Shown here piece after piece: positions 14,969-55,405 of a DNA stretch of 64,000 bases. Every line of letters starts with the position of its first letter. Within the stretch, counting starts at the first letter, position 1. The stretch comes from Siphonodentalium dalli (Eukaryota; Mollusca; Scaphopoda; Gadilida; Siphonodentaliidae), in NCBI GenBank assembly GCA_032622095.1, contig CP136064.1, positions 261,807,863 to 261,871,862 on the forward strand, in the 5' to 3' direction. The notes below the pieces were generated by a model. That model ran no database searches, was not told where the DNA came from, and saw only the letters and a program-made list of their open reading frames with translations. The position numbers and the translations under genes were made by a program.

Positions 14969-17900
14969 ATACCCCATTTACACCCATACGGAGTGTCACC
15001 CCCGGTGTGATCGGTCGGGTTCGGGATGTTTCTAGATGGGATTTGGGGCGGGCCACCCATCCGTGTCGTCCAATCGGTGGTATTTGGGGCGGGCTACCAA
15101 CATTTTATCCCATCGAAGTGGCACCCCCGAGTGATGGTGGGGGTATGGTGTGTCTATGGGTATTTGGGGCGGGCCAACCACCCAAGCCGTGATATCGGTC
15201 GAAATCCACACCGGTCTTGAAAATGGTCCGTACCCCATTTTCACCACCTGCGGTCAAATCGGTTGAAATTCTTACCCTTCTCGAAAGTTGTCTATACCAC
15301 ATGTTCACCCCCTGGGTGGCACCCCGGGTGATGGGTGGGGTCGGGTGTTTTTACGGGGTATTATGGGCGAGCCACCCACCCATGCCGTCAAATCGGTCTA
15401 AATTCTTACCCTTCTCGAAATTTATCCATACCCCATGTTCATCCCTGGGGTGGCATCCCCCAGGAGGTAATTGGTGGGGTATCGACGTGTTTCTTTGGGT
15501 TACTTGGGCGGACCACTCACCCATGGCGTCCAATCTGTGGAAATTCTTACCGTTCTCGAGTAAGGTCCATACCCCATTTTCACCCCTTCGGGTGGCACCA
15601 CCCAAGGGTGATGTCGGGTTCGGGTATTTATATGAGGTATTTGTGGCGGGCCAGCCACCCACGCCGTCAAATCGGTCGAAATCCTTACTATTCTCGAGTA
15701 TTGTCCATACCCCATGTTCACCCCTGCGGAGTGGCACCACCGGTGTGATAAGTGGGAGTCGGGTATTTCTAGGTGGTATTTGGGCGGGCCACCCACCCAT
15801 GGCGTCAAATCCATACGGCATTTTCACTCCCTATGGTGGCACCCCCACCGGAGTGATGGGTGGGGTGGGGTTTTTCTAGTGGGTATTTAGGGCGGGCCAC
15901 CCACCCTGTGGTGATGGCTTGGGAATCGGGTGTTCATAGGGGTTATTTGGGGCAAGCCACCGACCCATGCCATCAAATCGGTCGAAATCCTTACCGTTCT
16001 CAAAAATGGTTCATACCCCATGTTCACCCCCTTGGGGTGGCAGCCACTGGGGTTGATGCCTCGGGGGTCGGCGTGTTTCTAGGGGTTATTTGTGGTGGGC
16101 CATCACACATGCCATCAAATCGGGCGAAATCCTTTCCGTTCTCGAAAATGGTCCTTACCCCATGTTCACCTCCTCGGGTGGCAACCCGGGTGATGGGTGG
16201 GTGATCCGGGAGTTTCTATGGTATTTTGGGTAGATCACCCACCCATGCCGTCAAATCGGTCGAAATCCTTACCGTTCTCGAAAATGATCCATACCCCATT
16301 TTCACCTCCTCGGGGTGGCACCCCCGCAGGTGATTGGTATGGGATCGGTGTGTTTCTATGGTGTACTTGAGGTGGGCCACTCACCGTGCCGTCAAATCAG
16401 TGGAAATTATTACTCTCCTCGAAAAAATGTCCATACCCCATGTTCACCCCATGGGGTGGCACCCCATGAGGTGATTGGTGGTTCGGGTTGTTTCTATGGG
16501 GTACTTGGGGCGGGCCACTCACCCACGCGGTCAAATCGGTGCTAATTCTTACCGTTCTCGAAAATAGCCCATTTTCACCCCTCGGGGTGGCACCATTGAG
16601 CTGATGGTTGGAGGCCGGGTGTTTCTGATGGGTATTTGGGGCGGGCCACATACCCATGCCGTCAAATCGGTAAAAATCCTTACCGTTCTCGAAAATGATC
16701 CATACCCCATTTTCACACCCTCGGGTGCCACCCCGGAGAAATGGGTGGGGTCGGGGTGTTTCTAGGGGATAATTGGAGCGGGCCACCACCCAGGCCGTCA
16801 AATCGGTAGAAATCCTTACCTTACACCATTTTACCCCCTTCGGGGTGGCACCCGCGGGGTGATGGATGGGGCATTGTGCTGTGTCTAGGGGGTATTTGGG
16901 GCAGATCGCTCGAAATCCTTACCATTCTCCAAAATTGTCCATACCCCATTTAACACCCACGGGGTGGCACCCCGGGGCCTTGTACTATGGACCATAATAA
17001 TTGTAATCACAAGGTTAAGGGAGGTACACAGGAGGCGGGCAAGTGCAATAGACCACTGTATTGTAATAGTGTATATTATACCCGTGTGCATGTGGGCTCA
17101 TTGCCGATGGGTGATTGGGTTTGATCAGAATGGCATTCACACTGCGGCAATCAAGCGGTTGTCTCGTGGCAAACAACCTAAAGTCTGTATTGGAGTATTG
17201 ACCAATTATGACATTCGTGCAGGGATGTTGTTAGAGGGTCTCCTTTGTGGGTACACAACTTGGAGTTTAAACCTGCACCTGAGACCTTCTAGCTACGTCT
17301 CTTGTACATATTATCAATAGAATACTGCAGCGATTCTGAATGACAAACCAACTAGAAATTAAATACATCGTACGACTTGAATTGTTGGAACAGACGATAA
17401 CCATTGATGAAATATAACACAATGCACGAACGGTTGCGGTGTACTCACTGGGCGATTAATTAATGGATACCGATTACCACTAATCAAATTGAACACGGCT
17501 CACCCATGCACTAGCGATAACATCTCAATGAGTGTCTCCGAGGAATCATTTTTTTCATTGGTCAATCAAGTCACATGTGAAAAACTTATTATTTTATTGG
17601 TCACCAATTATTTTATTGGTCAACATGCATGTGAAAGCGGAATTACAAGAAGTCGCCTATACACTGTTAGAATAAGAGTGGAGGTCTATGGTAATCGACA
17701 CCTTTTGTGTGCCCCACTGAAGCTTGTGATTACAATAATTGTGTTCTATAGTATAGGGCCCGGGTTGATGGGTGGGTGGTCGGGGTGTTTTATGTGGTAT
17801 TTGGGGTGGGCCACCAACCCATTCCGTCAAATCGGTCTAAATTCCTACCCTCTGGGTGGCACCCCCGGGGTGATGGGCGGGGGTCGGGTGTTTCTTGGAG

Positions 17901-19402
17901 GTATATGGGCGGGACACACACCCATGTCGTCAAATCGGTTGAAAACCTTACCGTTCTCGAAAATGGTCCAAACACCATTTGTACCCCCTCGGGGTGATGG
18001 GTGGGGGTGTTTCAAATTGGTGTTTAAATTGTGAATTTAGGGTGGGGCACCCACACACACGCGGTCAAATCGGTTGAAATTCTTACCATTCTCGAAAGTT
18101 GTCTATACCACATGTTCACCCCCCCCCTGGGTCGCACACCCAATGTGATTGGTGGGGGTCTGGTGTTTCTATTGGGTATTTGGGGCGGGCCACCCACCCA
18201 TGCCGTCAAATCGGTAAAAATATTTACCGTTCTCGAGAATGGTCCATACACTATTTTCACACCTACGGGGTGTCACTCCCGGGGTGGTGTGGCTGGGGTG
18301 TTTCTATGGGGTATTTGGGGCGGGCCATCCACCCATGCCGTCACGAAATTTGTCCATAACCTATTTTCACCTCTTCGGGGTGCCAACCCCAGAGGTTGAT
18401 GGGATGGGTCTGGTGTTTCTAGGGGGTATTTGGGGCGGGCCACCCACAAATGCCGTCAAATCGGTCGAAATTCTTACCGTTCTGGAAAGTGGTCGATACT
18501 GTTCTCGAAAATGGTCCATACCCCATTTTCACCTCTTCGTTGTTGATGGGCGGGGGTCTGGTGTCTATAGGGGGTATTTGGGACGAGCGACCACCCATGC
18601 CGTCAAATCGGTCGAAATACTTACCGTTCTCGAAAATGGTTCATCCCCCATTTTCACCCCTTCTGTTGTCACCACCCGGGGGTGATGAGTGGGGAGTCTG
18701 GTGTTTCTAGTAGGTATTTGGGGCGGGCCACCCACCCAGCATGCAATCAAATCGGTCGAAATCCCAACTGTTCTTGAAAATGGTTTATACCCCATTTCAC
18801 CCCTTCGGGGTGGCACCCCCGGTGGTGATAGGTTGGGCTCGGTGTGTTTGTGTCAGGCCACCGAACCGTTCAGTCAAATTGGTCGAAATCTGTACCGTTC
18901 TCGAAAATGGTCGATGCTGTTCTCGAAAATGGTCCATATCCCATTTTCACCTCTTCGGGGTGGCAATCACCGGGTTTGCTGTGTGGGGGTCTGTCGTCTC
19001 TATGGGTGTTTGGGACGAGCCACCCACCCATGCCGTCAAATCGGTCGAAATCCTTACCGTTCTTGGAAATAGTTTATACCCCATTTCACCCCTTCGCGTG
19101 GTAACACCCGGGGTGATTGGGTAGAGATTTCGAGTGTTTCTGAGAGATATATGGGACGGGCCACCCACCCATGCCGTCAAATCGGTCCAAATCCTTACTG
19201 TTCTCGAAAATGGTCCATACCCCGAAGTGATTGGAAGGGAGTCGGTTGTTTCTAGGGAGTATTTGGGGTGGGCCACCCACCGTGCCGTCAAATCGGTTTA
19301 AATCCAATACTGTTCTCGAAAATGGTCCATACCCAATTGTTACCCAATCGGGGTGGCACCCCCGTGGGTAATGGGTGGGGATGGGAGTTTCTGTGTGGTA
19401 TG
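14969..19402. repeat. ~4436-bp satellite higher-order repeat, unit 3
   Basis: Third tandem copy, again near-identical. Beyond 19402 the sequence runs through one more ordinary monomer (to about 19505), and the recognisable high-identity satellite then stops. Confidence 0.92.
16976..17760. mobile_element. 785-bp inverted-repeat element in satellite unit 3
   Basis: Third co-amplified copy at the same offset within unit 3. Confidence 0.75.
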
Positions 19403-31583: not shown

Positions 31584-31817
31584 TCATTTCAATATATATA
31601 TATATGAACACTCATACTGAGTCCGTGCCTCCATAACTCTGACATATATATATACGCCAGTACCAGTAATCGTATGGTCACAGATGCAATTTCGGAGGAA
31701 GTGCATTGCCATGTTTCCAGAATGGCAGATTAAGAATTTCGAAGGCAGTGGGTTCGAACCCATGTTCAGACTGATACGCTTCCTAACTCTCGGTGAAAGG
31801 GCTTCCTTTTTAAGGAT

Positions 31818-31908
31818 GTCCCCGTAGCCGAGGTGGTTAGGTCGTGGATACGATCATCACAGTCTGGGCTAGACGAGGTTGGCGCGGGTTCGAACCCCGG
31901 CATGGATG
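31818..31908 (+). repeat. tRNA-like (Leu/Ser-type) block, unit 1
   Basis: TAGCCGAGGTGGTTAG is an excellent class II (Leu/Ser) A box and GCGGGTTCGAACCCC an excellent B box. They are spaced as in a tRNA with a long variable arm. The acceptor halves (GTCCCCG and CATGGAT) pair only partly, so a functional tRNA is unlikely. It is best read as a tRNA-derived pol III promoter or SINE head carried in the tandem array. Confidence 0.5.
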
Positions 31909-32242
31909 AAAATCGAGACCGGTTTTCAAGCTTGATTTGGTTTGAGGAACATCTCAATGTGCCATTCCGATCGACACATGGCCATTTCGATAAGAAATGA
32001 GAATTTGTTCACGCAAATATGAAGCAATGAACACTCATACTGAGTCCGTGCCTCCATAACTCTGACATATATATATATACGCCAGTACCAGTAATCGTAT
32101 GGTCACAGATGCAATTTCGGAGGAAGTGCATTGCCATGTTTCCAGAATGGCAGATCAAGAATTTCGAAGGCAGTGGGTTCGAACCCATGTTCAGACTGAT
32201 ACGCTTCCTAACTCTCGGTGAAAGGGCTTCCTTTTTAAGGAT

Positions 32243-32333
32243 GTCCCCGTAGCCGAGGTGGTTAGGTCGTGGATACGATCATCACAGTCTGGGCTAGACG
32301 AGGTTGGCGCGGGTTCGAACCCCGGCATGGATG
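32243..32333 (+). repeat. tRNA-like block, unit 2
   Basis: Same block as at 31818 with intact A and B boxes; co-amplified with the 423-bp unit. Confidence 0.5.
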
Positions 32334-32665
32334 AAAATCGAGACCGGTTTTCAAGCTTGATTTGGTTTGAGGAACATCTCAATGTGCCATTCCGATCGAC
32401 ACATGGCCATTTCGATAAGAAATGAGAATTTGTTCACGCAAATATGAAGCAATGAACACTCATACTGAGTCCGTGCCTCCATAACTCTGACATATATATA
32501 TACGCCAGTACCAGTAATCGTATGGTCACAGATGCAATTTCGGAGGAAGTGCATTGCCATGTTTCCAGAATGGCAGATCAAGAATTTCGAAGGCAGTGGG
32601 TTCGAACCCATGTTCAGACTGATACGCTTCCTAACTCTCGGTGAAAGGGCTTCCTTTTTAAGGAT

Positions 32666-32756
32666 GTCCCCGTAGCCGAGGTGGTTAGGTCGTGGATACG
32701 ATCATCACAGTCTGGGCTAGACGAGGTTGGCGCGGGTTCGAACCCCGGCATGGATG
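32666..32756 (+). repeat. tRNA-like block, unit 3
   Basis: Same block with intact A and B boxes. Confidence 0.5.
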
Positions 32757-33088
32757 AAAATCGAGACCGGTTTTCAAGCTTGATTTGGTTTGAGGAACAT
32801 CTCAATGTGCCATTCCGATCGACACATGGCCATTTCGATAAGAAATGAGAATTTGTTCACGCAAATATGAAGCAATGAACACTCATACTGAGTCCGTGCC
32901 TCCATAACTCTGACATATATATATACGCCAGTACCAGTAATCGTATGGTCACAGATGCAATTTCGGAGGAAGTGCATTGCCATGTTTCCAGAATGGCAGA
33001 TCAAGAATTTCGAAGGCAGTGGGTTCGAACCCATGTTCAGACTGATACGCTTCCTAACTCTCGGTGAAAGGGCTTCCTTTTTAAGGAT

Positions 33089-33179
33089 GTCCCCGTAGCC
33101 GAGGTGGTTAGGTCGTGGATACGATCATCACAGTCTGGGCTAGACGAGGTTGACGCGGGTTCGAACCCCGGCATGGATG
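33089..33179 (+). repeat. tRNA-like block, unit 4
   Basis: Same block; one G-to-A change just before the B box (GTTGACGCGGG instead of GTTGGCGCGGG). Confidence 0.5.
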
Positions 33180-33511
33180 AAAATCGAGACCGGTTTTCAA
33201 GCTTGATTTGGTTTGAGGAACATCTCAATGTGCCATTCCGATCGACACATGGCCATTTCGATAAGAAATGAGAATTTGTTCACGCAAATATGAAGCAATG
33301 AACACTCATACTGAGTCCGTGCCTCCATAACTCTGACATATATATATACGCCAGTACCAGTAATCGTATGGTCACAGATGCAATTTCGGAGGAAGTGCAT
33401 TGCCATGTTTCCAGAATGGCAGATCAAGAATTTCGAAGGCAGTGGGTTCGAACCCATGTTCAGACTGATACGCTTCCTAACTCTCGGTGAAAGGGCTTCC
33501 TTTTTAAGGAT

Positions 33512-33602
33512 GTCCCCGTAGCCGAGGTGGTTAGGTCGTGGATACGATCATCACAGTCTGGGCTAGACGAGGTTGGCGCGGGTTCGAACCCCGGCATGGA
33601 TG
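33512..33602 (+). repeat. tRNA-like block, unit 5
   Basis: Same block with intact A and B boxes; last complete copy before the (TA)n tract. Confidence 0.5.
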
Positions 33603-33757
33603 AAAATCGAGACCGGTTTTCAAGCTTGATTTGGTTTGAGGAACATCTCAATGTGCCATTCCGATCGACACATGGCCATTTCGATAAGCAATGAGAATTT
33701 GTTCACGCAAATATGAAGCAATGAACACTCATACTGAGTCCGTGCCTCCATAACTCT

Positions 33758-33759
<2 letters not shown>

Positions 33760-33802
<43 letters not shown>

Positions 33803-35176
33803 TTTTTTGTTTTTTTGTTTTTTTTGTTTTTTTATTCCATTTTGAATAGGAATAATAATCATATCCTCTACAACATATCCACAATCCGATAAATCCGCTT
33901 AGAGCAAAATGTTCTATTCAAAATGACATCCATGATGACAATTGGCTTTAGGTGCACCAACTATCGCCAAGTTTATGATCGTGGAAAATAATATTAACAT
34001 ATATTCTCCTGTTTTCAGATTTTCCCGGCCAATGCCTGTATGTTGCAGCAAGGGTCATGGATTGTACTGGTGACAACAATTCGACTGGTGATCACGCATG
34101 TCGGAAATGAAGCACATCACCATATAATACGTGCAATGCTGATATTCCATACCAGGTACGTAGCATACACTGTATACGTATATGAACAGTTGTCCAATGT
34201 CTTTAAGTTGTTAGATATTCATAAAACCAATTTTGGTAAAAGAAGTACATAAGACCATAAGCTCACGTGGAGGCATTTAGGGTGCGTTCTAAAAACAATT
34301 TATAATGTAACACTTTTCTTGTGTTCGCAGCATAAAATGGTAAGCCGAGTACTGACTTCTGTGATTTAATTTGGCTTCCAATAACCATTGAACAAGAATC
34401 TGCGTGTGAGACTAAAATAATGTGCGTGTGAGACTAATAATTTTTTATATTGAATTTTTCAATATTTTTTCACAAAGCATTGTGTGTTAGTATTACTGTA
34501 CTTCTTATCGACCACTTAATTATTTTTAAAAATGTTTGAGCCAGCTGTTCTTTAATCTATATCATATTCCTCAGTACACTCTTATAACTAATGCGTGTAG
34601 AAACGATTACACATCAAATGTGTAAACCCGGTTAATACACATAGCAATGTGTAGTTTTACATACAAATACATTGACCAGTGCCGTTCTACACATAATGTG
34701 TATATTTTGTTACACGCAATTGTGTAAGAACGTCGAGCATGCGCATTGCGATGCCTTCAGTTTCATAGTCTGCTACGTGACGGCCATATTGTTTGAGTAT
34801 ATTTTTTGGAATACAATCTACAGCGATCGTAGACAAGGATGTAAGTTCGGAATTCCAATGTGTGGGTATAGTATTAATAGTATATGAGGATTTATTTGTT
34901 AAAACTTTCATGGCGATTACTGCGCTTAGACTCTTGTTATGATTGTTGTAATAATACTAATATTATGCAATCACGACTCGACCCTGGTTTGTTCATTCAA
35001 AGCAAAAACTCACAGTACAGAACAAAATACTACATCCCACTATGCGCCATGAAAGTTTTAACATATAAATCTGCATATATCTTTAATACTATACCCACAG
35101 GTCGGACTACTGAAGTTGCATTTCTTGTCTACGAACTGTGTGTGTAAGAACCTACACAAAATGTGTAAGGGATATG
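33760..35176 (+). repeat. Segmental duplication, copy A
   Basis: 33760-33974 ((TA)n, T-rich tract, then ATTCCATTTTGAATAGG...) matches 43900-44119. 33975-35176 matches 48079-49278 with only a few substitutions. Relative to copy B, a 3.96-kb internal segment is absent. The left edge lies in the (TA)n tract and the right edge inside a TGTGTA-rich inverted-repeat element. Its small reading frames (for example 34040-34252) are repeated in B and carry no recognisable domain. Confidence 0.88.
34577..35176 (+). mobile_element. TGTGTA-rich inverted-repeat element, copy 1 (right end missing)
   Basis: Starts CACTCTTATAACTAATG like the complete copy at 48681 and contains many TGTGTA/TACACA words, but stops at GGGATATG, about 200 bp before the expected right terminus. 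The truncation point equals the right edge of duplication copy A. Confidence 0.65.
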
Positions 35177-35908
35177 GCCCAAAATTCCTTATAGCGAAAT
35201 AATGGCAAATACGTGTCCGAGGGGTGTATCTCATGCATGTCTCGACCGCCATCTCAATGGCAACACATCATTAAACAGGGGTCTTATGGCGAATATATAT
35301 CACATAGAAAAATCCGGTTGGCTTCCTTATATTTCACAAATGGGAGGTTTGAGTGACAAAATTGGCTGTTTTTGGGATGTCCGTTATTGGGTATCCGATT
35401 TCATGAGCTCAGAAACTTGAGTAATCCGTTACTATATTATACAAGTCCTATGTAATTATCTCACTTGTATGACCGATTTTCGCATTAAAAACCAATTATT
35501 CTATAACGTTACTATATTTGGAAGCAGTCCACCATGGTATGTTGTCCGTGAAAACGGTGCTTTCTCCGTTACCATCAATTTAAATCGTCATAACTGACAG
35601 ATACAACTTGCTGTACGTGCCTAATTTTATACAAAGAAACGCAGTATCACGTGTAACCTGGGGAACATATAGCTCTAAATGCAAATGAATCATATGTAGA
35701 AATAACGAGAGATGAGTTGCCACTCCCAAAAAGGTTTATTTAAGGATGTTTTCTCCGTTACCACCATAAAACATAGAAAATCGACGATTTAACTCCAACT
35801 GCTAATCTCATCTGACGGAACGTCTATCAAGCCCAATATATCACGTGAGCATGTTGAAATTAATATCACAAGACTTTTGTATATGGTTGTAAACAATATG
35901 CGGTTTTC
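35177..35908. other. Unique spacer before the Penelope-like elements
   Basis: AT-rich, no domain-bearing frame. It holds two similar phrases, TTTCTCCGTTACCA at 35559 and 35751, otherwise nothing recognised. Confidence 0.5.
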
Positions 35909-35920
35909 TCCTCGATAGGT

Positions 35921-36802
35921 ACACGAGTTGGCGTCCAAACTCATACAAACAAACGTGGTCGGTCACCCTCCCCTCCCCCACTAATCGCTCGCCAGCTTCA
36001 ATTTCAGGATAGTCCAGCCAGGGATCAGACAACGTCGTCGTCTGTGAGATCCACACCAAAACGCGCCAAAGCCACACCACAGCCACAGAGACCTGCACCA
36101 AAACCACGGACGTCACGCATATCCACTCCACCAAATACATCACTTCAAAATTCACCAGCCAAGAAAACAACACCACCAAAGCACATCTCTTCCAGCCCTC
36201 CTTCGCCTGTTGGTTCCATTGCTTCGATGACATCGCCAGCGATTTCAACATCATCACCATCGTATGCCGAGGTATTATCAACATCACCTAATGTATCCAA
36301 ATTTTATAAATTTCGTCAACCTGGCCCTAAGAAGGATTGGTCCTTCCCTAAACAGATAAAAAACCCTGTTGTTATTTTAGGCTCTTCTAATGTGTCCCGG
36401 ATCGATGTCGATCCTCCCAAAAATGTTTGTATTGCTTCTTACCCAGGTGGCAATTTAGGTCATTTCTGCAACATGGCCCACAAACTGAAATCGAAGCCAG
36501 AAAAGACACCTCGACACGTCATCATCAACATTGGCATCAACAACCGAGAGGACTGGAAGACAGACAACGACAAAGGCAAAACAGCAGGCACCACAGCTAA
36601 AAGCAGGGTAACTAACATGGTTAGTAATTTCCGAAAAGTTTTTCCTAATGCGACACTTCATTTTCAGGAAATAAATATCTCATTCAGTTTAGATTCTAGG
36701 GACCAGGATGTTCTGCGTGCCATTAACAGCCAAGCTCGTCAGACACAGAACCTCAAGGTCATACAGGCAATACCCCCCCCGCGACTTTCACGTGGAGAAT
36801 GA
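35921..36802 (+). pseudogene. SGNH-hydrolase-like ORF of PLE copy 1, frameshifted
   Basis: Same protein as the intact ORF in copy 2: a Pro/Ser-rich segment followed by an SGNH-like domain with GSSNVSR (block I), YPGGNLG (block II) and GINNRED (block III). A C-run near 36773 has eight Cs where copy 2 has seven. The frame shifts there, just before the DxxH block, and ends at 36802. The 5' end is cut off by the element's truncation. Function is inferred from motifs: an esterase-like accessory protein of the element, possibly inactive because block I reads GSS instead of GDS. Confidence 0.7.
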
Positions 36803-36865
36803 CAACATCCACTGGACATCACAGACGGCGGCGAAAATCGACCAAGGCTGGACCAACATCTTTAA

Positions 36866-39244
36866 AGGTCATTTAAACTAATTCCTCAGAAGGGCATCAG
36901 CCATGCGGAAAGAGTCGGTCTCGGCACCGAGATAGTCAATCTTGTATCCGACCTTTCCCTGAGAGCTGGTGAGAAATCAATACTTAGGTATGGTCTAACC
37001 TTTGTTCCTACCCCACCCGATCTCAAAGAAACACCACATGTTGTTGAGACGGAGGATGGAACATTGGTTTTACCAGACTCTATGTATGCCATGGAAATGA
37101 ACGGCGGTCCAGCAAGCATGCAATTTAGGGAAGTAACAGCTATGGCTGATTTCTTTCGCAATTCGACAGGTTTAAAAGATCAATTTAAAGAACCTTCGAT
37201 ATGGACCCCCTCTGATCGCCAGATTGACCACTCCATTCCCGAGGTCGCTGGCTTAGTCAAAACCGACATCACAAATTTACCAAAATTTCACAACGAGGAT
37301 AACCTCACTAAAGTTGAAAGAACTGCACTAAAAACTCTTCGCAGCAATAAAAACATTGTAATCAAACCTTGTGACAAAGGCAGCTCGCTCGTCATCATGT
37401 CTAAAGAAAATTACATTCTAGAAGCGACGCGCCAATTAAGCAACACTAAATATTACAAACCATTGGATGAGCCAATTTGGAAATCCAATGTTTTAAAATT
37501 CAATCTCATTCTCAAAAGCTTGCTGGACCAGGACGTTTTAAAGAAAAAACATGTTCAGTATCTAATTGCAAAACCTGAATCCAATAATAGGACATTTTAT
37601 TTGCTACCTAAAATACACAAACCTTTGAGCTGTTGGACTAATCCATACACACCACCCGGTCGCCCCACCATCAGCGACGTTGCTTCGGAGTCGTACCACA
37701 TTTCGGAGTTTATTGATTTCTATTTGAAACCAATTGCTACCCGCCATCCGAGCTATCTAAAAGACACGGAGGACTTCCTCATTAAATTGTCGAAAATTGA
37801 AGTTCCATCTTCTGCTTACCTAATTAGTCTCGACGTGGAATCTATGTATACAAATATTGGAATCGATGCCGGATTAAAGTCAATTAAGAATGCATTTGAT
37901 TTCCACCATGATCCTCATAGACCTGGAGATGAACTACTTCAATTATTAGAACTTTCTCTTAAAGGGAATGACTTTGAATTTAATGGACGATATTATTTAC
38001 AGGTCTCCGGCTGCAGTATGGGCAAGAAGTTTAGTCCTAATTTTGCCTCAATTTTTGTTGCAGAGTGGGAGAAAGGCGCCTTAGCCAAATCTGATAAACA
38101 ACCATTAGCCTATTACAGATTCTTGGATGACATATTTATCATTTGGACTCATGGTCTGGATGAGTTTAGGGTGTTCTTGGACATCTTGAACAGTCATGAC
38201 GAATCAATCAAACTCAAAGAATCAATATCGCAAACCAGCATTGATTTCCTTGATTTAACAATATTTAAGGGCCCACAATTTACATCATGCAACATTTTAG
38301 ATACAAAACTTTTTACGAAACCAACGGACTCTCACCAGCTTCTTCATCGTAAATCTTTCCATCCGCCAAAACTGTTCAATGGATTGATTAAATCTCAAAT
38401 CATTCGATACCACCGGAACTGCACGAACAGAAGCGACCTAAATCAAGCTTGTTCAGTGCTGTTCCAGGCTTTACGACCGCGCGGCTACTCTAGTAGATTA
38501 CTGCGCCAAGTAAAGTCCGAAACTCTCAGAGAATTGGAATCGTTACGCCATGACCCAACATCGACTGAGCCAACAAGGATACGGCACAATCGACAGGTGT
38601 TGGGTAATGGTTCAGCCTCATTTTGTCACAAAAAACGATGTTACATCAATACAATAGGATATATCAATACTAGAAACACTTTCACCAGCGAACAAACACG
38701 CATATCGTATCAAATGCATAGCGAACTTAATTGTGATTCTAAAAATGTAATTTACTTAATCACATGCAAAAGATGCCGTATACAATATGTTGGACAAACA
38801 AAAACCTCTCTCAAAGTTAGAATGTCTAATCATCTTTCCAGTGTTCGCAAAAAACTCGACATGCAAATTTCCGATCATTTCAACTCATCTAATCATGACA
38901 TTAAATCCCATTTCAGCTTTCAGCCAATAGAACAGACACCAATTCTAGCCGACGAAGACCAAACCGATTCAATACGCCTAGAACGCGAAAATCATTGGAT
39001 GGGCGTACTTAAAACATATCTTCCGTTCGGACTTAACATTGACTACAAAGGTGTTTCTCGAAATTTCTTGTGCTTTCCTCTGATCTACAATCGTAGAAAT
39101 GTTGAAATCGCAAACATTTTCAGAAAAAACTTTGCATTATTAAACACTAAATTGACCGAGCCTCTCGACAAACGGGTTATTATTGCCTACAAGAAAAATC
39201 CCAGTTTGAGAGATATGCTCGTTCGATCTAGACTCAGACCTTGA
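36866..39244 (+). CDS. Penelope-like reverse transcriptase with C-terminal GIY-YIG endonuclease (copy 1, uninterrupted)
   Basis: The frame is open from 36866 to a stop at 39242-39244. Residue numbers here count from the TTG codon at 37064. RT hallmarks in order: NIVIKPCDKGSSLVIM (97-112), FYLLPKIHKP (178-187), motif A SLDVESMYTNI (255-265, Asp257), motif B SGCSMGKKFSPNFAS (315-329), motif C RFLDDIF (352-358, Asp355/Asp356), and FLDLTIF with TKPTD (395-422). A GIY-YIG nuclease follows, with NVIYLITCKRCRIQYVGQT (561-579), Arg586 and a later Glu-rich LERENHW. This RT plus GIY-YIG order defines Penelope-like elements. RT copies element RNA and the nuclease nicks target DNA for priming. No ATG lies upstream of the conserved GLTFVPTP segment (about 36996-37019), so translation probably enters by a -1 frameshift at 36872. 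The frame looks intact in this copy. Confidence 0.92.
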   Translation, partial: RSFKLIPQKGISHAERVGLGTEIVNLVSDLSLRAGEKSILRYGLTFVPTPPDLKETPHVVETEDGTLVLPDSMYAMEMNGGPASMQFREVTAMADFFRNSTGLKDQFKEPSIWTPSDRQIDHSIPEVAGLVKTDITNLPKFHNEDNLTKVERTALKTLRSNKNIVIKPCDKGSSLVIMSKENYILEATRQLSNTKYYKPLDEPIWKSNVLKFNLILKSLLDQDVLKKKHVQYLIAKPESNNRTFYLLPKIHKPLSCWTNPYTPPGRPTISDVASESYHISEFIDFYLKPIATRHPSYLKDTEDFLIKLSKIEVPSSAYLISLDVESMYTNIGIDAGLKSIKNAFDFHHDPHRPGDELLQLLELSLKGNDFEFNGRYYLQVSGCSMGKKFSPNFASIFVAEWEKGALAKSDKQPLAYYRFLDDIFIIWTHGLDEFRVFLDILNSHDESIKLKESISQTSIDFLDLTIFKGPQFTSCNILDTKLFTKPTDSHQLLHRKSFHPPKLFNGLIKSQIIRYHRNCTNRSDLNQACSVLFQALRPRGYSSRLLRQVKSETLRELESLRHDPTSTEPTRIRHNRQVLGNGSASFCHKKRCYINTIGYINTRNTFTSEQTRISYQMHSELNCDSKNVIYLITCKRCRIQYVGQTKTSLKVRMSNHLSSVRKKLDMQISDHFNSSNHDIKSHFSFQPIEQTPILADEDQTDSIRLERENHWMGVLKTYLPFGLNIDYKGVSRNFLCFPLIYNRRNVEIANIFRKNFALLNTKLTEPLDKRVIIAYKKNPSLRDMLVRSRLRP
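36872..36878 (+). promoter_or_regulatory. Candidate -1 ribosomal frameshift heptamer (copy 1)
   Basis: TTTAAAC in the SGNH frame (T TTA AAC) directly before the TAA stop; identical to the site in copy 2. Confidence 0.6.
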
Positions 39245-39700
39245 TTAACACGCAGTTCAATTAGCTTTTTAGCAATTTCAACATCATTATCCTTTGTTTG
39301 TGCTCAACACAATATTTTATGTCAATTTCCGACACAACCTAACAAAATTTAGCTAGTTCCATAGAAATAATTACATAAGAAATCGGATAACCGACCTGTG
39401 CCAGCGCCCTCCACACTTTCCAAATATATATTACGCCTGTGCCAGGGATATGATTTGTTTCTATTTACTTAACACATATGTATTACTGTCTAATTGCGCG
39501 CTGTCACTAGGATTTGGATTAGGGGCTTCCGGTAGCCATTACACAACCCATTAAGAACGCGCGATCTTGAGGAAACATGAGCCTCGTGTCGGCGCCAAAC
39601 ATTTTGTAAGCATTGTTTCACTGTGTGCTTTACACACGAACATAGCTGTTGACACGTCTCTCGAAACCCTGAAGCACAATGTGAGCTTATCTCACACGGG

Positions 39701-39708
39701 TATATAAG
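39701..39708 (+). promoter_or_regulatory. TATA box of PLE copy 2
   Basis: TATATAAG, a consensus TATA box 200 bp before the first ATG. It would place a pol II start near 39730, close to the CTGAAGAAGG motif. Confidence 0.5.
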
Positions 39709-39748
39709 ATCCTCGGAAAAACCTAAACATTCGAACCTAGCTTGCTTC

Positions 39749-39774
39749 CTGAAGAAGGTAATTCTACCGAAACG
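39749..39774 (+). ncRNA. Hammerhead-core-like motif in PLE leader
   Basis: CTGAAGA, then a GGTA-ATTC-TACC hairpin, then GAAAC. This resembles the CUGANGA / stem II / GAAA core reported in Penelope-like elements. GTTG-AGG-CAAC after it could form a stem III. An extra A precedes stem II and I could not find a convincing stem I, so catalytic activity is not supported. It may be a degenerate ribozyme or just a conserved leader hairpin. Confidence 0.35.
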
Positions 39775-39901
39775 TTGAGGCAACTTGACAGTGCGCTCCT
39801 AAGTACTTTTTTATTTTATATCTTCGCGTTCCGTTCTTTGTGTATTATATGTTACTAATCATTACCTTTATTCACAGCCAAAATTCAAGTCCTGGATCAA
39901 A

Positions 39902-40312
39902 ATGACTCAACCAAAACAACCTAAACGTGGAAAAACTAACCGCCCAGAGCGGCAAAAAGACCAGGCTTATTTAGACCATTCAAATCTAGTAAAGTTGCTA
40001 TACAAAATTCTACAACTTTGGCACCATATTAATTTTTTACAGGACCGTTTGGAGAAGAAGGTCCTTCCGAAAGGCTTTTCGGCCATCGTTGAGTCAGGGC
40101 GAAAGAAGACATTCCGACCAGTGCTTTCCTGTGAGGATGTCTTCAATTCGCTTAAAGCGGACGCTTTTGAGTGGGGTTTAAACTCCATGAAAACTTTGGT
40201 CAATTATTATCGGAAAACGGAATCAGAAATTGAAGTCAAAGTTCTTTCGGCTCTTTCTTCTAAAACCCTTGACTTCGACCGAGCACGTGACACGGCATTA
40301 AATGGGGACTGA
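39902..40312 (+). CDS. PLE copy 2 ORF1, N-terminal part
   Basis: 136 codons from ATG with a basic start (KQPKRGKTNRPERQ) and a helical region (LVKLLYKILQLWHHINFLQDRLEKKVLPKG), ending with ...RARDTALNGD. No named domain is recognised. The following SGNH frame is already open from 40291, overlaps this ORF in the -1 frame and has no ATG of its own near its start. The protein-like sequence continues naturally across the break (GLKNFGTKLTNETKSKFL). The two ORFs are therefore probably one ancestral ORF split by a single-base lesion near 40310; a second frameshift is less likely because no slippery heptamer is seen. Possible role: RNA binding or multimerisation, by analogy with ORF1 proteins (inference). 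Confidence 0.6.
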   Translation: MTQPKQPKRGKTNRPERQKDQAYLDHSNLVKLLYKILQLWHHINFLQDRLEKKVLPKGFSAIVESGRKKTFRPVLSCEDVFNSLKADAFEWGLNSMKTLVNYYRKTESEIEVKVLSALSSKTLDFDRARDTALNGD

Positions 40313-41352
40313 AGAATTTTGGCACCAAATTAACTAATGAGACAAAATCAAAGTTCTTGAGCATCTGTGGTAATCTTCAGTCCTCGATAGGTACACGAGT
40401 TGGCGTCCAAACTCATACAAACAAACGTGGTCGGTCACCCTCCCCTCCCCCACTAATCGCTCGCCAGCTTCAATTTCAGGATAGTCCAGCCAGGGATCAG
40501 ACAACGTCGTCGTCTGTGAGATCCACACCAAAACGCGTCAAAGCCACACCACAGCCACAGAGACCTGCACCAAAACCACGGACGTCACGCATATCCACTC
40601 CACCAAATACATCACTTCAAAATTCACCAGCCAAGAAAACAACACCACCAAAGCACATCTCTTCCAGCCCTCCTTCGCCTGTTGGTTCCATTGCTTCGAT
40701 GACATCGCCAGCGATTTCAACATCATCACCATCGTATGCCGAGGTATTATCAACATCACCTAAGGTATCCAAATTTTATAAATTTCGTCAACCTGGCCCT
40801 AAGAAGGATTGGTCCTTCCCTAAACAGATAAAAAACCCTGTTGTTATTTTAGGCTCTTCTAATGTGTCCCGGATCGATGTCGATCCTCCCAAAAATGTTT
40901 GTATTGCTTCTTACCCAGGTGGCAATTTAGGTCATTTCTGCAACATGGCCCACAAACTGAAATCGAAGCCAGAAAAGACACCTCGACACGTCATCATCAA
41001 CATTGGCATCAACAACCGAGAGGACTGGAAGACAGACAACGACAAAGGCAAAACAGCAGGCACCACAGCTAAAAGCAGGGTAACTAACATGGTTAGTAAT
41101 TTCCGAAAAGTTTTTCCTAATGCGACACTTCATTTTCAGGAAATAAATATCTCATTCAGTTTAGATTCTAGGGACCAGGATGTTCTGCGTGCCATTAACA
41201 GCCAAGCTCGTCAGACACAGAACCTCAAGGTCATACAGGCAATACCCCCCCGCGACTTTCACGTGGAGAATGACAACATCCACTGGACATCACAGACGGC
41301 GGCGAAAATCTACCAAGGCTGGACCAACATCTTTAAAGGTCATTTAAACTAA
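40291..41352 (+). CDS. PLE copy 2 SGNH-hydrolase-like ORF
   Basis: Open from 40291; the first plausible non-ATG start is TTG at 40357, from which 331 residues follow. Residues 24-140 are rich in Pro, Ser, Thr and Lys, with repeated SP/TP dipeptides, and look disordered. Residues 158-331 form an SGNH/GDSL-like fold: VVILGSSN (162-169, block I), YPGGNLG (186-192, block II), INIGINNRED (214-223, block III) and DNIHW (306-310, DxxH block V). Block I has GSS rather than GDS, but a serine remains in the nucleophile region. SGNH esterase domains are known in ORF1 of CR1-group LINEs. One upstream of a Penelope-type RT is less expected. The ORF ends T TTA AAC TAA, a frameshift configuration. Confidence 0.75.
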   Translation, partial: HGIKWGLKNFGTKLTNETKSKFLSICGNLQSSIGTRVGVQTHTNKRGRSPSPPPLIARQLQFQDSPARDQTTSSSVRSTPKRVKATPQPQRPAPKPRTSRISTPPNTSLQNSPAKKTTPPKHISSSPPSPVGSIASMTSPAISTSSPSYAEVLSTSPKVSKFYKFRQPGPKKDWSFPKQIKNPVVILGSSNVSRIDVDPPKNVCIASYPGGNLGHFCNMAHKLKSKPEKTPRHVIINIGINNREDWKTDNDKGKTAGTTAKSRVTNMVSNFRKVFPNATLHFQEINISFSLDSRDQDVLRAINSQARQTQNLKVIQAIPPRDFHVENDNIHWTSQTAAKIYQGWTNIFKGHLN

Positions 41353-43715
41353 TTCCTCAGAAGGGCATCAGCCATGCGGAAAGAGTCGGTCTCGGCACCG
41401 AGATAGTCAATCTTGTACCCGACCTTTCACTGAGCGCTGGTGAGAAATCAATACTTAGGTATGGTCTAACCTTTGTTCCTACTCCACCCGATCTCAAAGA
41501 AACACCACATGTTGTTGAGACGGAGGATGGAACATTGGTTTTACCAGACTCTATGTATGCCATGGAAATGAACGGCGGTCCAGCAAGCATGCAATTTAGG
41601 GAAGTAACAGCTATGGCTGATTTCTTTCGCAATTCGACAGATTTAAAAGATCAATTTAAAGAACCTTCGATATGGACCCCCTCTGATCGCCAGATTGACC
41701 ACTCCATTCCCGAGGTCGCTGGCTTAGTCAAAACCGACATCACAAATTTACCAAAATTTCACAACGAGGATAACCTCACTGAAGTTGAAAGAACTGCACT
41801 AAAAACTCTTCGCAGCAATAAAAACATTGTAATCAAACCTTGTGACAAAGGCAGCTCGCTCGTCATCATGTCTAAAGAAAATTACATTCTAGAAGCGACG
41901 CGCCAATTAAGCAACACTAAATATTACAAACCATTGGATGAGCCAATTTGGAAATCCAATGTTTTAAAATTCAATCTCATTCTCAAAAGCTTGCTGGACC
42001 AGGACGTTTTAAAGAAAAAACATGTTCAGTATCTAATTGCAAAACCTGAATCCAATAATAGGACATTTTATTTGCTACCTAAAATACACAAACCTTTGAG
42101 CTGTTGGACTAATCCATACACACCACCCGGTCGCCCCATCATCAGCGACGTGGCTTCGGAGTCGTACCACATTTCGGAGTTTATTGATTTCTATTTGAAA
42201 CCAATTGCTACCAGCCATCCGAGCTATCTAAAAGACACGGAGGACTTCCTCATTAAATTGTCGAAAATTGAAGTTCCATCTTCTGCTTACCTAATTAGTC
42301 TCGACGTGGAATCTATGTATACAAATATTGGAATCGATGCCGGATTAAAGTCAATTAAGAATGCATTTGATTTCCACCATGATCCTCATAGACCTGGAGA
42401 TGAACTACTTCAATTATTAGAACTTTCTCTTAAAGGGAATGACTTTGAATTTAATGGACGATATTATTTACAGGTCTCCGGCTGCAGAATGGGCAAGAAG
42501 TTTAGTCCTAATTTTGCCTCAATTTTTGTTGCAGAGTGGGAGAAAGACGCCTTAGCCAAATCTGATAAACAACCATTAGCCTATTACAGATTCTTGGACG
42601 ACATATTTATCATTTGGACTCATGGTCTGGATGAGTTTAGGGTGTTCTTGGACATCTTGAACAGTCATGACGAATCAATCAAACTCAAAGAATCAATATC
42701 GCAAACCAGCATTGATTTCCTTGATTTAACAATATTTAAGGGCCCACAATTTACATCATGCAACATTTTAGATACAAAACTTTTTACGAAACCAACGGAC
42801 TCTCACCAGCTTCTTCATCGTAAATCTTTCCATCCGCCAAAACTGTTCAATGGATTGATTAAATCTCAAATCATTCGATACCACCGGAACTGCACGAACA
42901 GAAGCGACCTAAATCAAGCTTGTTCAGTGCTGTTCCAGGCTTTACGACCGCGCGGCTACTCTAGTAGATTACTGCGCCAAGTAAAGTCCGAAACTCTCAG
43001 AGAATTGGAATCGTTACGCCATGACCCAACATCGACTGAGCCAACATGGATACGGCACAATCGACCGGTGTTGGGTAATGGTTCAGCCTCATTTTGTCAC
43101 AAAAAACGATGTTACATCAATACAATAGGATATATCAATACTAGTAACACTTTCACCAGCGAACAAACACGCATATCGTATCAAATGCATAGCGAACTTA
43201 ATTGTGATTCTAAAAATGTAATTTACTTAATCACATGCAAAAGATGCCGTATACAATATGTTGGATAAACAAAAAGCTCTCTCAAAGTTAGAATGTCTAA
43301 TCATCTTTCCAGTGTTCGCAAAAAACTCGACATGCAAATTTCCGATCATTTCAACTCATCTAATCATGACATTAAATCCCATTTCAGCTTTCAGCCAATA
43401 GAACAGACACCAATTCTAGCCGACGAAGACCAAACCGATTCAATACGCCTAGAACGCGAAAATCATTGGATGGGCGTACTTAAAACATATCTTCCGTTCG
43501 GACTTAACATTGACTACAAAGGTGTTTCTCGAAATTTCTTGTGCTTTCCTCTGATCTACAATCGTAGAAATGTTGAAATCGCAAACATTTTCAGAAAAAA
43601 CTTTGCATTATTAAACACTAAATTGACCGAGCCTCTCAACAAACGGGTTATTATTGCCTACAAGAAAAATCCCAGTTTGAGAGATATGCTCGTTCGATCT
43701 AGACTCAGACCTTGA
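41337..43715 (+). pseudogene. Penelope-like RT plus GIY-YIG, copy 2, nonsense-mutated
   Basis: Same protein as in copy 1 with all RT motifs present (SLDVESMYTNI, SGCRMGKKFSP, RFLDDIF). A C-to-T change turns the codon after QYVG into TAA at 43266-43268, inside the GIY-YIG core. The same frame continues to 43715 and encodes the rest of the nuclease. If translated, this copy would yield RT without a complete nuclease. Motif B reads GCRMG here and GCSMG in copy 1. Confidence 0.88.
41343..41349 (+). promoter_or_regulatory. Candidate -1 programmed ribosomal frameshift site
   Basis: TTTAAAC phased as T_TTA_AAC in the SGNH frame, followed at once by the TAA stop at 41350. Slippage by -1 enters the RT frame, which is open from 41337. 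The heptamer is one of the strongest known eukaryotic slippery sequences. I see no clear stimulatory pseudoknot; a small CTCG/CGAG hairpin lies near 41390. Confidence 0.6.
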
Positions 43716-43891
43716 TTAACACGCAGTTCAATTAGCTTTTTAGCAATTTCAACATCATTATCCTTTGTTTGTGCTCAACACAATATTTTATGTCAATTTC
43801 CGACACAACCTAACAAAATTTAGCTAGTTCCATAGAAATAATTACATAAGAAATCGGATAACCGACCTGTGCCAGCGCCCTCCACACTTTC

Positions 43892-43902
<11 letters not shown>

Positions 43903-43948
<46 letters not shown>

Positions 43949-44119
43949 TTTTTTGTTTTTTTGTTTTTTTTGTTTTTTTATTCCATTTTGAATAGGAATA
44001 ATAATCATATCCTCTACAACATATCCACAATCCGATAAATCCGCTTAGAGCAAAATGTTCTATTCAAAATGACATCCATGATGACAATTGGCTTTAGGTG
44101 CACCAACTATCGCCAAGTT
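43903..44119 (+). repeat. Segmental duplication copy B, left part ((AT)n and T-rich tract)
   Basis: (AT)n to about 43944, then TTGTTTTTTTTG-type T-rich sequence and ATTCCATTTTGAATAGG onward. Matches 33760-33974 until CGCCAAGTT, where copy A jumps to the equivalent of 48079. Confidence 0.85.
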
Positions 44120-48078: not shown

Positions 48079-49278
48079 ATGATCGTGGAAAATAATATTA
48101 ACATATATTCTCCTGTTTTCAGATTTTCCCGGCCAATGCCTGTATGTTGCAGCAAGGGTCATGGATTGTACTGGTGACAACAATTCGACTGGTGATCACG
48201 CATGTCGGAAATGAAGCACATCACCATATAATACGTGCAATGCTGATATTCCATACCAGGTACGTAGCATACACTGTATACGTATATGAACAGTTGTCCA
48301 ATGTCTTTAAGTTGTTAGATATTCATAAAACCAATTTTGGTAAAAGAAGTACATAAGACCATAAGCTCACGTGGAGGCATTTAGGGTGCGTTCTAAAAAC
48401 AATTTATAATGTAACACTTTTCTTGTGTTCGCAGCATAAAATGGTAAGCCGAGTACTGACTTCTGTGATGTAATTTGGCTTCCAATAACCATTGAACAAG
48501 AATCTGCGTGTGAGACTAAAATAATGTGCGTGTGAGACTAATAATTTTTTATATTGAATTTTTCAATATTTTTTAACAAAGCATTGTGTGTTAGTATTAC
48601 TGTACTTCTTATCGACCACTTAATTATTTTTAAAAATGTTTGAGCCAGCTGTTCTTTAATCTATATCATATTCCTCAGTACACTCTTATAACTAATGTGT
48701 AGAAACGATTACACATCAAATGTGTAAACCCGGTAAATACACATAGCAATGTGTAGTTTTACATACAAATACATTGACCAGTGCCGTTCTACACATAATG
48801 TGTATATTTTGTTACACGCAATTGTGTAAGAACGTCGAGCATGCGCATTGCGATGCCTTCAGTTTCATAGTCTGCTACGTGACGGCCATATTGTTTGAGT
48901 ATATTTTTTGGAATACAATCTACAGCGATCGTAGACAAGGATGTAAGTTCGGAATTCCAATGTGTGGGTATAGTATTAATAGTATATGAGGATTTATTTG
49001 TTAAAACTTTCATGGCGATTACTGCGCTTAGACTCTTGTTATGATTGTTGTAATAATACTAATATTATGCAATCACGCCTCGACCCTGGTTTGTTCATTC
49101 AAAGCAAAAACTCACAGTACATAACAAAATACTACATCCCACTATGCGCCATGAAAGTTTTAACATATAAATCTGCATATATCTTTAATACTATACCCAC
49201 AGGTCGGACTACTGAAGTTGCATTTCTTGTCTACGAACTGTGTGTGTAAGAACCTACACAAAATGTGTAAGGGATATG
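48079..49278 (+). repeat. Segmental duplication copy B, right part
   Basis: Matches 33975-35176 with only scattered substitutions and a 2-base difference near 48697. Beyond 49278 this copy continues to the true right end of the TGTGTA element. Confidence 0.88.
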
Positions 49279-53565: not shown

Positions 53566-54776
53566 CTAAATGGTAGTTTCTTCCGTTATAGTCCCCCGGT
53601 TACCATGATTACTTTCTCTGGTCTTAAACCTTCTCAATACAAAACCACAAATCCTGAACTTCTTTCGTCTTGGATTCATGATCTTGAAAAACGTTTCCTT
53701 AAAGACACGACTCATTGAACAATACATAATGAATTTAGCCGCGTTGTTTATCATCGACAAAAGCGTAAACAGGTCCGACAATCGAACGTACACGGCTCGG
53801 AAGAACGTGGGGTGAACTGCTCCAATCAAAGCTAGTACTCCATTAGGAAATTCAATAATCACAAACATCATAGCTATACAGACTAACAGCATGGTAGTCC
53901 TACGTGTCCGGATATTTCTATCATCAGCTCGGTCTTCCAGAAGAAGTCTTCGGGCCACAACCGCTCTGCGAAGTGCTCTAACGAGCAGAAAACTAAGACC
54001 TGTAAGAAGTAGACACGCTGTGATTTTGATGCCTATCCCAATGAATATTAGATAAACTTTCTTCAGCTCAGGATTTCGGTCGACTATAGAACTGTCTGTA
54101 AGCATCCATCCTCCTCCAAGATATATGGGCGCCGGTTTAGATTCATAGAAGAGATACACTGGCGTACTAATGATTGCACTAAGAATTGCTACGCAAACGA
54201 TCGCTTTCTTTGCGTTAGTTTTCGAGCAGAATGAGGCACTACGATGAACATGACATACAGAGACATACTGGAAGATTGCCAATGTTATAGTCAGCCACAT
54301 TCCGCAAAGTTCAAAGGTGAAGGACAGGTGAGGCCAGACAATTAAGTAGATGATCCAGCCTCTCTTTGAATTGACGTTGTAGTGGTCAGTATGTATGATT
54401 ACGTAGGCGTACAGCACGAACATCATGTATGTGAACAATGAAAACATGTCAGATATCCCTAGCGCCGTTAAGATCATATTCGTACTTGATCTCATATTCC
54501 TCCGCGTGAGAACTATAACATTTATTATATTAGTAATTATTCCGAATAAGCAGACGATAAGACTGAGATAACCATGCACCTTTCTGTATCCTTCCTCGAA
54601 CGCCCTCATACCTTCACTCGGGGCATACTCGTCGGTTTCGTTTGTTGGATATAGTTCTCCCGAACCGTAATAGTCATAATCATAGTCAGAATACACAATG
54701 TCAGCGATAAACAGCCTCGAATGATTTTTATTTGTGTCTTCATACCGGTTATATAGTAAATTGACGACAGATTTCA
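53566..54776 (-). CDS. Rhodopsin-family neuropeptide-type GPCR (terminal exon or single exon)
   Basis: The open frame encodes about 403 residues with seven hydrophobic segments: TM1 ~68-90 (GIITNIINVIVL), TM2 ~101-125 (Asp110), TM3 ~150-174, TM4 ~192-211, TM5 ~240-267, TM6 ~294-319 (Pro311) and TM7 ~332-355. The sequence MRSSTNMILTALGISDMFSL, RRTTMLL...FVIIEFPNGVLAL before and in TM6, and NNAAKFIMYCSMSRVFKETF resemble the FMRFamide/myosuppressin (DMSR) and sex-peptide receptor group. A plasma-membrane peptide receptor coupling to G proteins is inferred. TM3 ends FQY instead of DRY. The N-terminus has sequons (NHS at 18, NET at 46) and a DYDYDYYGSGE stretch that could be tyrosine-sulfated. The frame begins at GTG, not ATG, and the first ATG is residue 57 (54609). 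TTCAG immediately upstream looks like a splice acceptor, so a 5' exon probably lies upstream. The alternative is a shorter 347-residue protein from that ATG. Confidence 0.88.
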
Positions 54777-55405
54777 CTGAAGTATGTCATTATAAACAAA
54801 CCTGTTGAACTCCGTGTCTAATTTGTACCGGATATGCGATATATAAATTAAATACCGAGCACGCCATTGGCCTAATAAGCCTTCCTTTGAGAAGTGAATT
54901 ACCATCTCTTTTATTTCTATAAAGTAGGACGCTTGTAATCAATTATGACGCAGGAGTAGGTGGGTGCCTTAAACCTTTCTGCACAAATACTCATTTATGA
55001 AATATCACTTGTAAAATTAATGTTCAGATAAGTCCGATAAACGACCAGTTGAGCTTGTTATATGAACATTTCCCATCAGATAATATGAAACATTCTGCAT
55101 CTGTGTCATCCATTCTAGATTCTTTATTGTTGTTCTAATTAATTACATGTGTAATATACGAACAAACATGATATAATAAATAGCCCAATTCATAGAACAT
55201 TCACTATAGACAGGGTTATTTTTGTGAACATTTCCAACGGCTGTAAATTTCCTGTCTGACACATCATCCAGTTGGACATTTCAGACAAACAGTAGGTTCA
55301 ATTTGTCACGACAGTGTGATATTAGATTAGAGACTGTTTATTTACTCAATGCCACAATTGAGTGGTAAATACAGAGTACTAATTAACAAATCTGTATCTA
55401 TATTT
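54777..55405. other. Region upstream of the GPCR frame; no first exon identified
   Basis: AT-rich. On the minus strand a TTTATATAT box lies near 54838-54850, roughly 65 bp above the open frame; it could be a TATA element if the transcript starts here. No convincing coding first exon was found. Confidence 0.4.

Follow-up and report, generated by a model that had tools for sequence, protein, structure and literature searches.

The window analysed here is a stretch of 64,000 nucleotides (nt) from the scaphopod mollusc Siphonodentalium dalli (contig CP136064.1, positions 261,807,863 to 261,871,862, forward strand), which contains two head-to-tail copies of a Penelope-like retroelement. In these elements the reverse transcriptase (RT) is read in the -1 frame relative to an upstream open reading frame (ORF), ORF1, and the two frames overlap at the slippery heptamer T TTA AAC. 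We propose, with a probability of roughly 88%, that programmed -1 ribosomal frameshifting makes the ORF1 protein and a minor ORF1-RT-endonuclease fusion in the style of Gag and Gag-Pol. The shift would take place at T TTA AAC in the lineage of the window elements (clade A) and at T TTT TTA in a second, distant lineage of the same genome (clade B). Programmed -1 frameshifting was the interpretation of an initial annotation made from the window sequence, and the comparison of element families described below supports it.

The ORF1-RT junction in clade A

In the second window copy, the part of ORF1 that encodes an SGNH hydrolase domain (40291..41352, forward strand) terminates CAT TTA AAC TAA. 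TTTAAAC (41343..41349) is phased X_XXY_YYZ, with ORF1 as the zero frame, and the stop codon TAA (41350-41352) follows immediately 3'. The RT frame of this copy (41337..43268) is exactly -1 relative to ORF1 and is open from 41337, and the first copy has the same heptamer at 36872..36878. The initial annotation had described the ORF end in slippage phase, the exact -1 relation and the presence of the heptamer in both copies, and all three descriptions hold. Its statement that an SGNH ORF is joined to the RT is right about the junction frames; however, the ORF that it named covers no more than the 3' portion of ORF1, which has about 480 amino acids (aa) in all, and both copies are damaged.

A single site of this kind is weak evidence. 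On the two strands of the window together, TTTAAAC is found 23 times, where shuffled sequences average 17.2, and ten ORFs from these elements (six ORF1s and four RTs, 5981 codons) contain 38 in-phase X_XXY_YYZ heptamers, junction sites included. Since both are common, we rejected the significance of the single site as evidence, and the test has to compare families.

The host genome (2.23 gigabases, nine contigs) was searched for relatives; the clade and family names used here are our own. Clade A consists of three families with RT identities of 51-70% among them: (i) F1, the window family, with at least 57 RT matches, nearly all at 99%; (ii) F2, with 56 matches listed and an RT 51% identical to that of F1; and (iii) F3, with seven copies at 97-100% and an RT 70% identical to that of F1. 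F2 and F3 also have an SGNH ORF1. Clades B and C came from searches with the RT of a distant family and with the N-terminus of its relative. One scan of viral contigs found no relatives outside the host genome.

Clade-A junctions were read in 48 fetched loci and at the two window sites; two further loci without a junction (L016 and L017) were excluded. TTTAAACTAA is intact with the RT at -1 in 50 of 50 junctions (27 from F1, including the two in the window, 21 from F2 and 2 from F3), and in none of these relatives do the RT and the SGNH ORF share a frame. Around the junction, 49 of the 50 have no stop in the final 30 codons of ORF1 or the initial 40 of the RT; the remaining one, L007, has a stop in the RT frame. 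This count covers the junction only, as ORF1 is disrupted farther upstream in window copy 1 and in some other copies. The alignment of related elements that had been proposed as a check of the annotation therefore has both TTTAAAC and the -1 relation conserved across three far-diverged families.

The conservation of this layout bears on the possibility that a one-base mutational shift split an ancestral single ORF and that the present copies inherited the damage. Both window copies do carry other disruptions, and single-ORF families are present in the same genome. However, F1, F2 and F3 are far apart at synonymous sites, as are the clade-B clusters described below, and the same -1 layout is found throughout; several copies also have a long open ORF1 and a long open RT. 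The ORF1 tails differ by family (NIFKGH, SIDLVCP and QFIDQS) up to an invariant LN-stop, so that the residues directly before the site are GH, CP and QS. A mutational split is, on this evidence, scarcely credible.

The change of frame is visible in the comparison of F1 with F3. In the 180 nt upstream of the site, mismatches are distributed 36/27/17 over the three phases, being most frequent at third positions of ORF1 codons; in the 180 nt downstream they are distributed 15/10/32, being most frequent at third positions of RT codons. For the 62 RT codons after the site, all of which precede the first methionine (Met) of the F1 RT frame, our own script gave a nonsynonymous divergence (dN) of 0.29 and a synonymous divergence (dS) of 1.13. 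By these values, the RT frame directly after the site is translated and under purifying selection in F1 and F3. The ORF1 side evolves fast, and the phase signal is weak in F1/F2, in F2/F3 and in clade B.

The same comparison bears on a spliceosomal intron that would join ORF1 and RT in frame, an explanation that the initial annotation had itself raised against frameshifting. Such an intron has a precedent in a bdelloid rotifer Penelope copy reported with a spliceosomal intron in its ORF (PMC3846280). In the present elements, by contrast, the ORFs overlap, and the overlap is the same in all 50 clade-A junctions examined. Because coding constraint in F1/F3 reaches the heptamer on both sides, there is no non-coding stretch to remove and no room for an intron, and we consider this explanation very unlikely.

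A second lineage, control families and the proteins joined

The RTs of clade B are 26-29% identical to those of clade A, and the clade-B ORF1 is unrelated to that of clade A. An in-phase T TTT TTA with the RT at -1, open to the conserved motif, is present in 32 of 41 clade-B junctions. In the families where it was read, the ORF1 frame here continues past the site, to a stop that ends 63-117 nt after the first base of the heptamer. The 41 loci were also grouped blind, on the RT part 3' of the site, which gave ten clusters.

Conservation at the codon level singles out the heptamer. Eight site-bearing clade-B representatives share 26 invariant, degenerate residues in the RT frame; at only two of these do all eight use one codon, and both are the TTT codons of the heptamer. 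Since these representatives had been selected for carrying the heptamer, which is a bias, the test was redone on the ten blind clusters: 25 residues are common to all ten, and the same majority codon is used throughout only at the two heptamer codons. When each column was allowed its most favourable members, one Glu codon was added to these two. For clade A the three representatives were drawn from hit lists before the junctions were read. Their last 150 ORF1 codons contain 28 invariant columns, and four of these, the heptamer's TTA and AAC among them, use one codon in all three; the RT frame has 39 such columns, 13 of them with a single codon, and TTT AAA CTA at the slip site belongs to these 13. 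These alignments indicate that the heptamer is conserved more strongly than the encoded proteins require.

Clade C, the set of single-ORF Penelope families in this genome, served as the control. Sixteen of 19 loci were informative, and in none of these was a long ORF1 seen that a heptamer joins to the RT in the -1 relation; the loci set aside had no match (L081) or no significant match (L087 and L090). For nine of the 16 informative loci, the RT frame extends 124-221 codons upstream of its aligned start, as in single-ORF elements, and in several other loci the upstream part is short or broken.

The proteins on the two sides of the junction were examined for known domains. The RT of window copy 1 scores 29.6 bits for RVT_1, equal to the cut-off of 29.6, and that of F2 scores 36.5 bits; RVT_1 was not reported at E up to 1 for the RT of a clade-B copy (L005), which was recognised by its similarity to F1. 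A C-terminal GIY-YIG domain is found in window copy 1 (34.9 bits, cut-off 22.6, residues 627-714 of 792) and in L005 (31.1 bits, residues 685-765 of 770), and F2 has GIY-YIG as well. A PDB sequence search with the RT gave no match. No Rfam family, hammerhead ribozyme included, matched at the gathering threshold in the window, L002, L003, L005, L024 or L018; some members carry such a ribozyme in terminal repeats. RT and GIY-YIG share one ORF in these elements, and a separate zero-frame ORF1 precedes it, with the RT-endonuclease at -1, so that the element as a whole does not consist of a single ORF. The Penelope-like clade name is one that we take to be appropriate from domain order.

The clade-A ORF1 is a basic protein of 427-480 aa from its first Met, with an N-terminal domain common to F1-F3, a linker and a C-terminal SGNH domain. 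The catalytic S, G, N and H positions, which were assigned by eye, are invariant in F1, F2 and F3. Pfam Lipase_GDSL_2 gives 16-18 bits in F1 and F2, under the cut-off of 32.9, and nothing in F3. A Foldseek search with a single-sequence structural model of low confidence (mean pLDDT, the predicted local distance difference test score, 44) retrieved platelet-activating factor acetylhydrolase and GDSL esterases, with a best E of 6e-5. Together these point to a predicted SGNH hydrolase fold, with its catalytic residues, for the C-terminal domain. The clade-B ORF1 (B1-B3) is likewise basic; no SGNH family was found in it in Pfam at E up to 1 (B1, B2 and B3), and hhalign of the A and B ORF1s, three sequences each, gave a probability of 0.1%, that is, no detectable relation.

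A tree was built from ten RTs; it is unrooted and was drawn with midpoint rooting. A and B each form one clade in it (100/100). One split (84/88) places one clade-C lineage with B and three with A; the row Cb is long. Read on this tree, there are two possibilities for the history of the layout: it would either be ancestral and later lost in C, or have been gained twice. Two gains are favoured because the ORF1s are unrelated and the heptamers differ, with moderate support from a tree that is unrooted. We give an even chance to a more specific scenario, in which the two Penelope lineages acquired their gag-like ORF1s, which are unrelated, in separate capture events, and a -1 site arose independently in each. 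Clade A would have combined an SGNH hydrolase with U UUA AAC and an adjacent stop, and clade B a basic non-SGNH protein with U UUU UUA; this would amount to convergent Gag-Pol-style expression, with an esterase-RT-endonuclease fusion in clade A.

Proposed decoding and the evidence weighed against it

Under programmed frameshifting, ribosomes would translate ORF1, which in clade A means the basic N-terminal domain and the SGNH hydrolase. At T TTA AAC most of them would proceed into the adjacent UAA and release the ORF1 protein. A minority would slip back one base, the tRNAs on UUA and AAC re-pairing with UUU and AAA, and would continue through RT and endonuclease to yield an ORF1-RT-endonuclease fusion of about 1,270 aa (for F1, 480 aa of ORF1 from the first Met plus 788 of the 790 aa read from the heptamer). 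The outcome would be a Gag/Gag-Pol-like ratio of ORF1 to enzyme. The frames, the site, its conservation and the purifying selection after it come from the sequence, and from these we infer the slippage, its efficiency, the product ratio and the role of the adjacent stop.

Both heptamers are known slip sites. A 2016 review (PMC5009743) counts U_UUA_AAC among the heptamers on which mammalian ribosomes shift most readily, and U UUU UUA is the slip site of human immunodeficiency virus type 1 (HIV-1) (PMC4373837). A natural stop directly follows the slip site of Rous sarcoma virus, where altering the stop left efficiency unaffected; in HIV-1 constructs with a stop after the site, extra eRF1 cut frameshifting by 20-37% (PMC4373837). 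Given the stop directly after the clade-A site and the HIV-1/eRF1 precedent, release factor might tune the product ratio in clade A.

A stimulatory RNA structure was sought in the 60, 90 and 120 nt 3' of the site in eight families (F1-F3 and B1-B5) and in alignment folds of 13 F1, 2 F3 and 7 F2 distinct sequences. Neither the single folds nor the alignment folds contain a convincing conserved downstream structure, pseudoknots being outside the folding model. The downstream folding suggested in the initial annotation, which had a pseudoknot in mind, has therefore established no conserved pseudoknot or stem.

The other route to an RT protein is separate translation, by termination-reinitiation or by internal initiation at a non-AUG codon or a downstream AUG, with the heptamer as a by-product of overlapping frames. 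As would be expected for coupled translation, the stop codon of ORF1 falls within the RT frame. The RT frame also has a Met 16 codons after the site in F2, at codon 50 in F3 and at codons 48-49, just before the conserved motif, in B2 and B5, which makes internal initiation possible in these four families and counts against frameshifting there. Against separate translation, the first RT-frame Met (codon 70 in F1, codon 50 in F3) is past the FxPTP motif at codon 43 in both families, and the stretch that precedes it is under purifying selection; in F1 an AUG start would lose that stretch, since all of it lies before the first Met. In the clade-B families where it was read, the ORF1 stop is 63-117 nt downstream of the heptamer's start, yet the codon-identical point is the heptamer. 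Separate translation is therefore an unlikely explanation. The earlier claim that no RT-frame ATG precedes the conserved segment is borne out in F1 (in the intact copy L001, Met at codon 70 and FVPTP at codon 43) and does not extend to F2, with its Met at codon 16.

Several further observations weigh against programmed frameshifting. The first group concerns RNA structure: z-scores of the 90-nt minimum free energy are -1.7 in F1, -2.6 in F3, -0.75 in F2 and about -0.1 to +1.2 in B1-B5, and the joint fold of F1 and F3 has one clear compensatory pair against many broken pairs. The second concerns sampling. Every family was taken from one genome; the clade-A junctions came from hit lists that mostly reached the junction, which makes 50 of 50 a non-blind survey; and because copies within a family are near-identical, the effective clade-A sample is three families. 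The third concerns the heptamer itself, whose identity is partly forced by two overlapping codes. A second in-phase TTTAAAC with no apparent role lies inside the F1 ORF1 (window 40177-40183; position 798 in L001), where the residues at the aligned positions of F2 and F3 differ. Among the clade-C controls, an in-phase TTTTTTC is present in L072, L074 and L075, preceded in the other frame by 47-90 open codons (in L075, a 105-codon ORF), and L083 has AAAAAAA with 52 open codons upstream. These four heptamers were taken as chance occurrences because they sit where the RT frame itself is open.

The fourth group is in clade B, where 5 of the 41 junctions lack an exact TTTTTTA (L019, L020, L029, L095 and L106, the last with TTTTTTG in the RT phase) and 4 have TTTTTTA off phase (L025, L104, L108 and L109). 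A blind pick of one locus per cluster found the exact TTTTTTA in 6 of 10; L106 gave TTTTTTG, and L019, L025 and L029 gave neither. In the three clusters picked without a heptamer, other members carry TTTTTTA in phase. Since all of the non-fitting loci but L106 fall in clusters where other members have the in-phase site, they are probably decayed or truncated.

The window copies and comparison with known systems

The first window copy is truncated at its 5' end (35909..39308, forward strand) and matches L001 1003-4401 at 99.0%; the second (39370..43779, forward strand; ends as set by the match) corresponds to L001 1-4401 at 98.2%. They lie 4471 nt apart. Tandem head-to-tail copies are also seen elsewhere, and at several loci RT matches recur at intervals of 4604 and 4613 nt. 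Neither window copy is intact. The SGNH ORF of copy 1 (35864..36802, forward strand) loses frame near its 3' end and stops before the heptamer, followed by a stop-free RT and GIY-YIG ORF of 792 codons (36866..39244, forward strand). In copy 2 the 5' part of ORF1, with the N-terminal domain (39803..40312, forward strand), is in a different frame from the remaining ORF1, and the RT frame ends at a TAA (43266-43268) within the GIY-YIG domain, the rest of which, with the C-terminus, occupies 43269..43715 (forward strand). In L001 and in many of the listed matches, the two parts of ORF1 form one frame. L001 has an ORF1 of 513 codons and an RT of 792 codons, and many of the 115 F1 ORF1 matches listed have an open frame of 513-516 codons. 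Of these 115, 16 end early, at query residue 321 or 323, much as window copy 1 ends early at a C run.

We had considered that one stop codon in GIY-YIG might be common to many F1 copies, and this was rejected: none of nine fetched F1 copies has the TAA of the window copy, and eight of the nine (L117-L124) instead share a shift of one base behind a run of A, by which the domain is altered. Given this common shift, an F1 subfamily with an altered endonuclease may have spread.

Around the elements, 33761-35176 is 99-100% identical to 43907-44119 plus 48079-49278. This flanking duplication spans about 1.4 kb, its right-hand copy being split by some 4 kb, and is possibly a long target duplication from the insertion. 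Elsewhere in the window are three near-identical units (about 6479-19302) with a spacing of about 4436 bp, in which ORFs on both strands and TTTAAAC sites recur; a tandem repeat of five copies of 423-425 bp (31644-33637), 100% identical over the 300 nt compared; and, on the minus strand, a 406-aa ORF (53566-54786) that, judged by eye, resembles a seven-transmembrane receptor.

If this decoding is correct, two separate lineages of one genome appear to use a ribosomal slip known from many retroviruses, in an element class usually described as single-frame. It would bring this mode of decoding to retroelements with a telomerase-related RT, and it would explain RT frames without a start codon, which would otherwise be annotated as truncated. 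If ORF1 and fusion are made in a set ratio, the logic is that of Gag and Gag-Pol, which affects the choice of protein to express when transposition is to be reconstituted; the heptamer would be a direct handle on whether ORF1 is needed.

The initial annotation had called a frameshift between an SGNH ORF1 and a Penelope-type RT a non-standard description of the class. The SGNH ORF1 is in fact already known from published Penelope-like elements; the -1 frameshift layout is the novel point. An SGNH domain has been reported in Penelope-like ORF1p sequences from RepBase (PMC3905857, in which the word frameshift is absent), and GDSL ORFs are known from bdelloid Athena elements (PMC5408684), where the sole mention of a frameshift in the text covered concerns long terminal repeat elements. 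Frameshifting in Penelope elements was not found in the literature covered, which is incomplete, so that an earlier mention is possible.

Penelope elements have been described either as a single ORF with RT and endonuclease or as two ORFs without endonuclease (PMC6431247; PMC11167929), and the elements described here differ from both. Like the canonical endonuclease-bearing elements of the Penelope/Poseidon type, they have an RT with a C-terminal GIY-YIG domain and occur in tandem arrays; the canonical elements have one ORF (PMC11167929; PMC6431247), whereas here a separate zero-frame ORF1 precedes an RT-endonuclease at -1. The two-ORF elements and Terminons (Athena) have extra ORFs, some of them GDSL/SGNH esterases (PMC5408684; PMC6431247), but in the portions covered they are described without an endonuclease domain. 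Outside the Penelope group, CR1/L2/RTEX elements have, as in clade A, an SGNH domain in a gag-like ORF1 upstream of the RT (PMC3905857). In the Dictyostelium non-LTR elements TRE5-A and TRE3-A, ORF2 needs a -1 frameshift after ORF1, as proposed here (PMC5911963); those elements have an apurinic endonuclease, whereas the present ones combine a Penelope RT with GIY-YIG. The retroviral and other viral -1 sites belong to another retroelement class, and no stimulatory structure was found in the present elements, yet the heptamers (U UUU UUA and U UUA AAC), their phase and the Gag-Pol-like gene order are the same.

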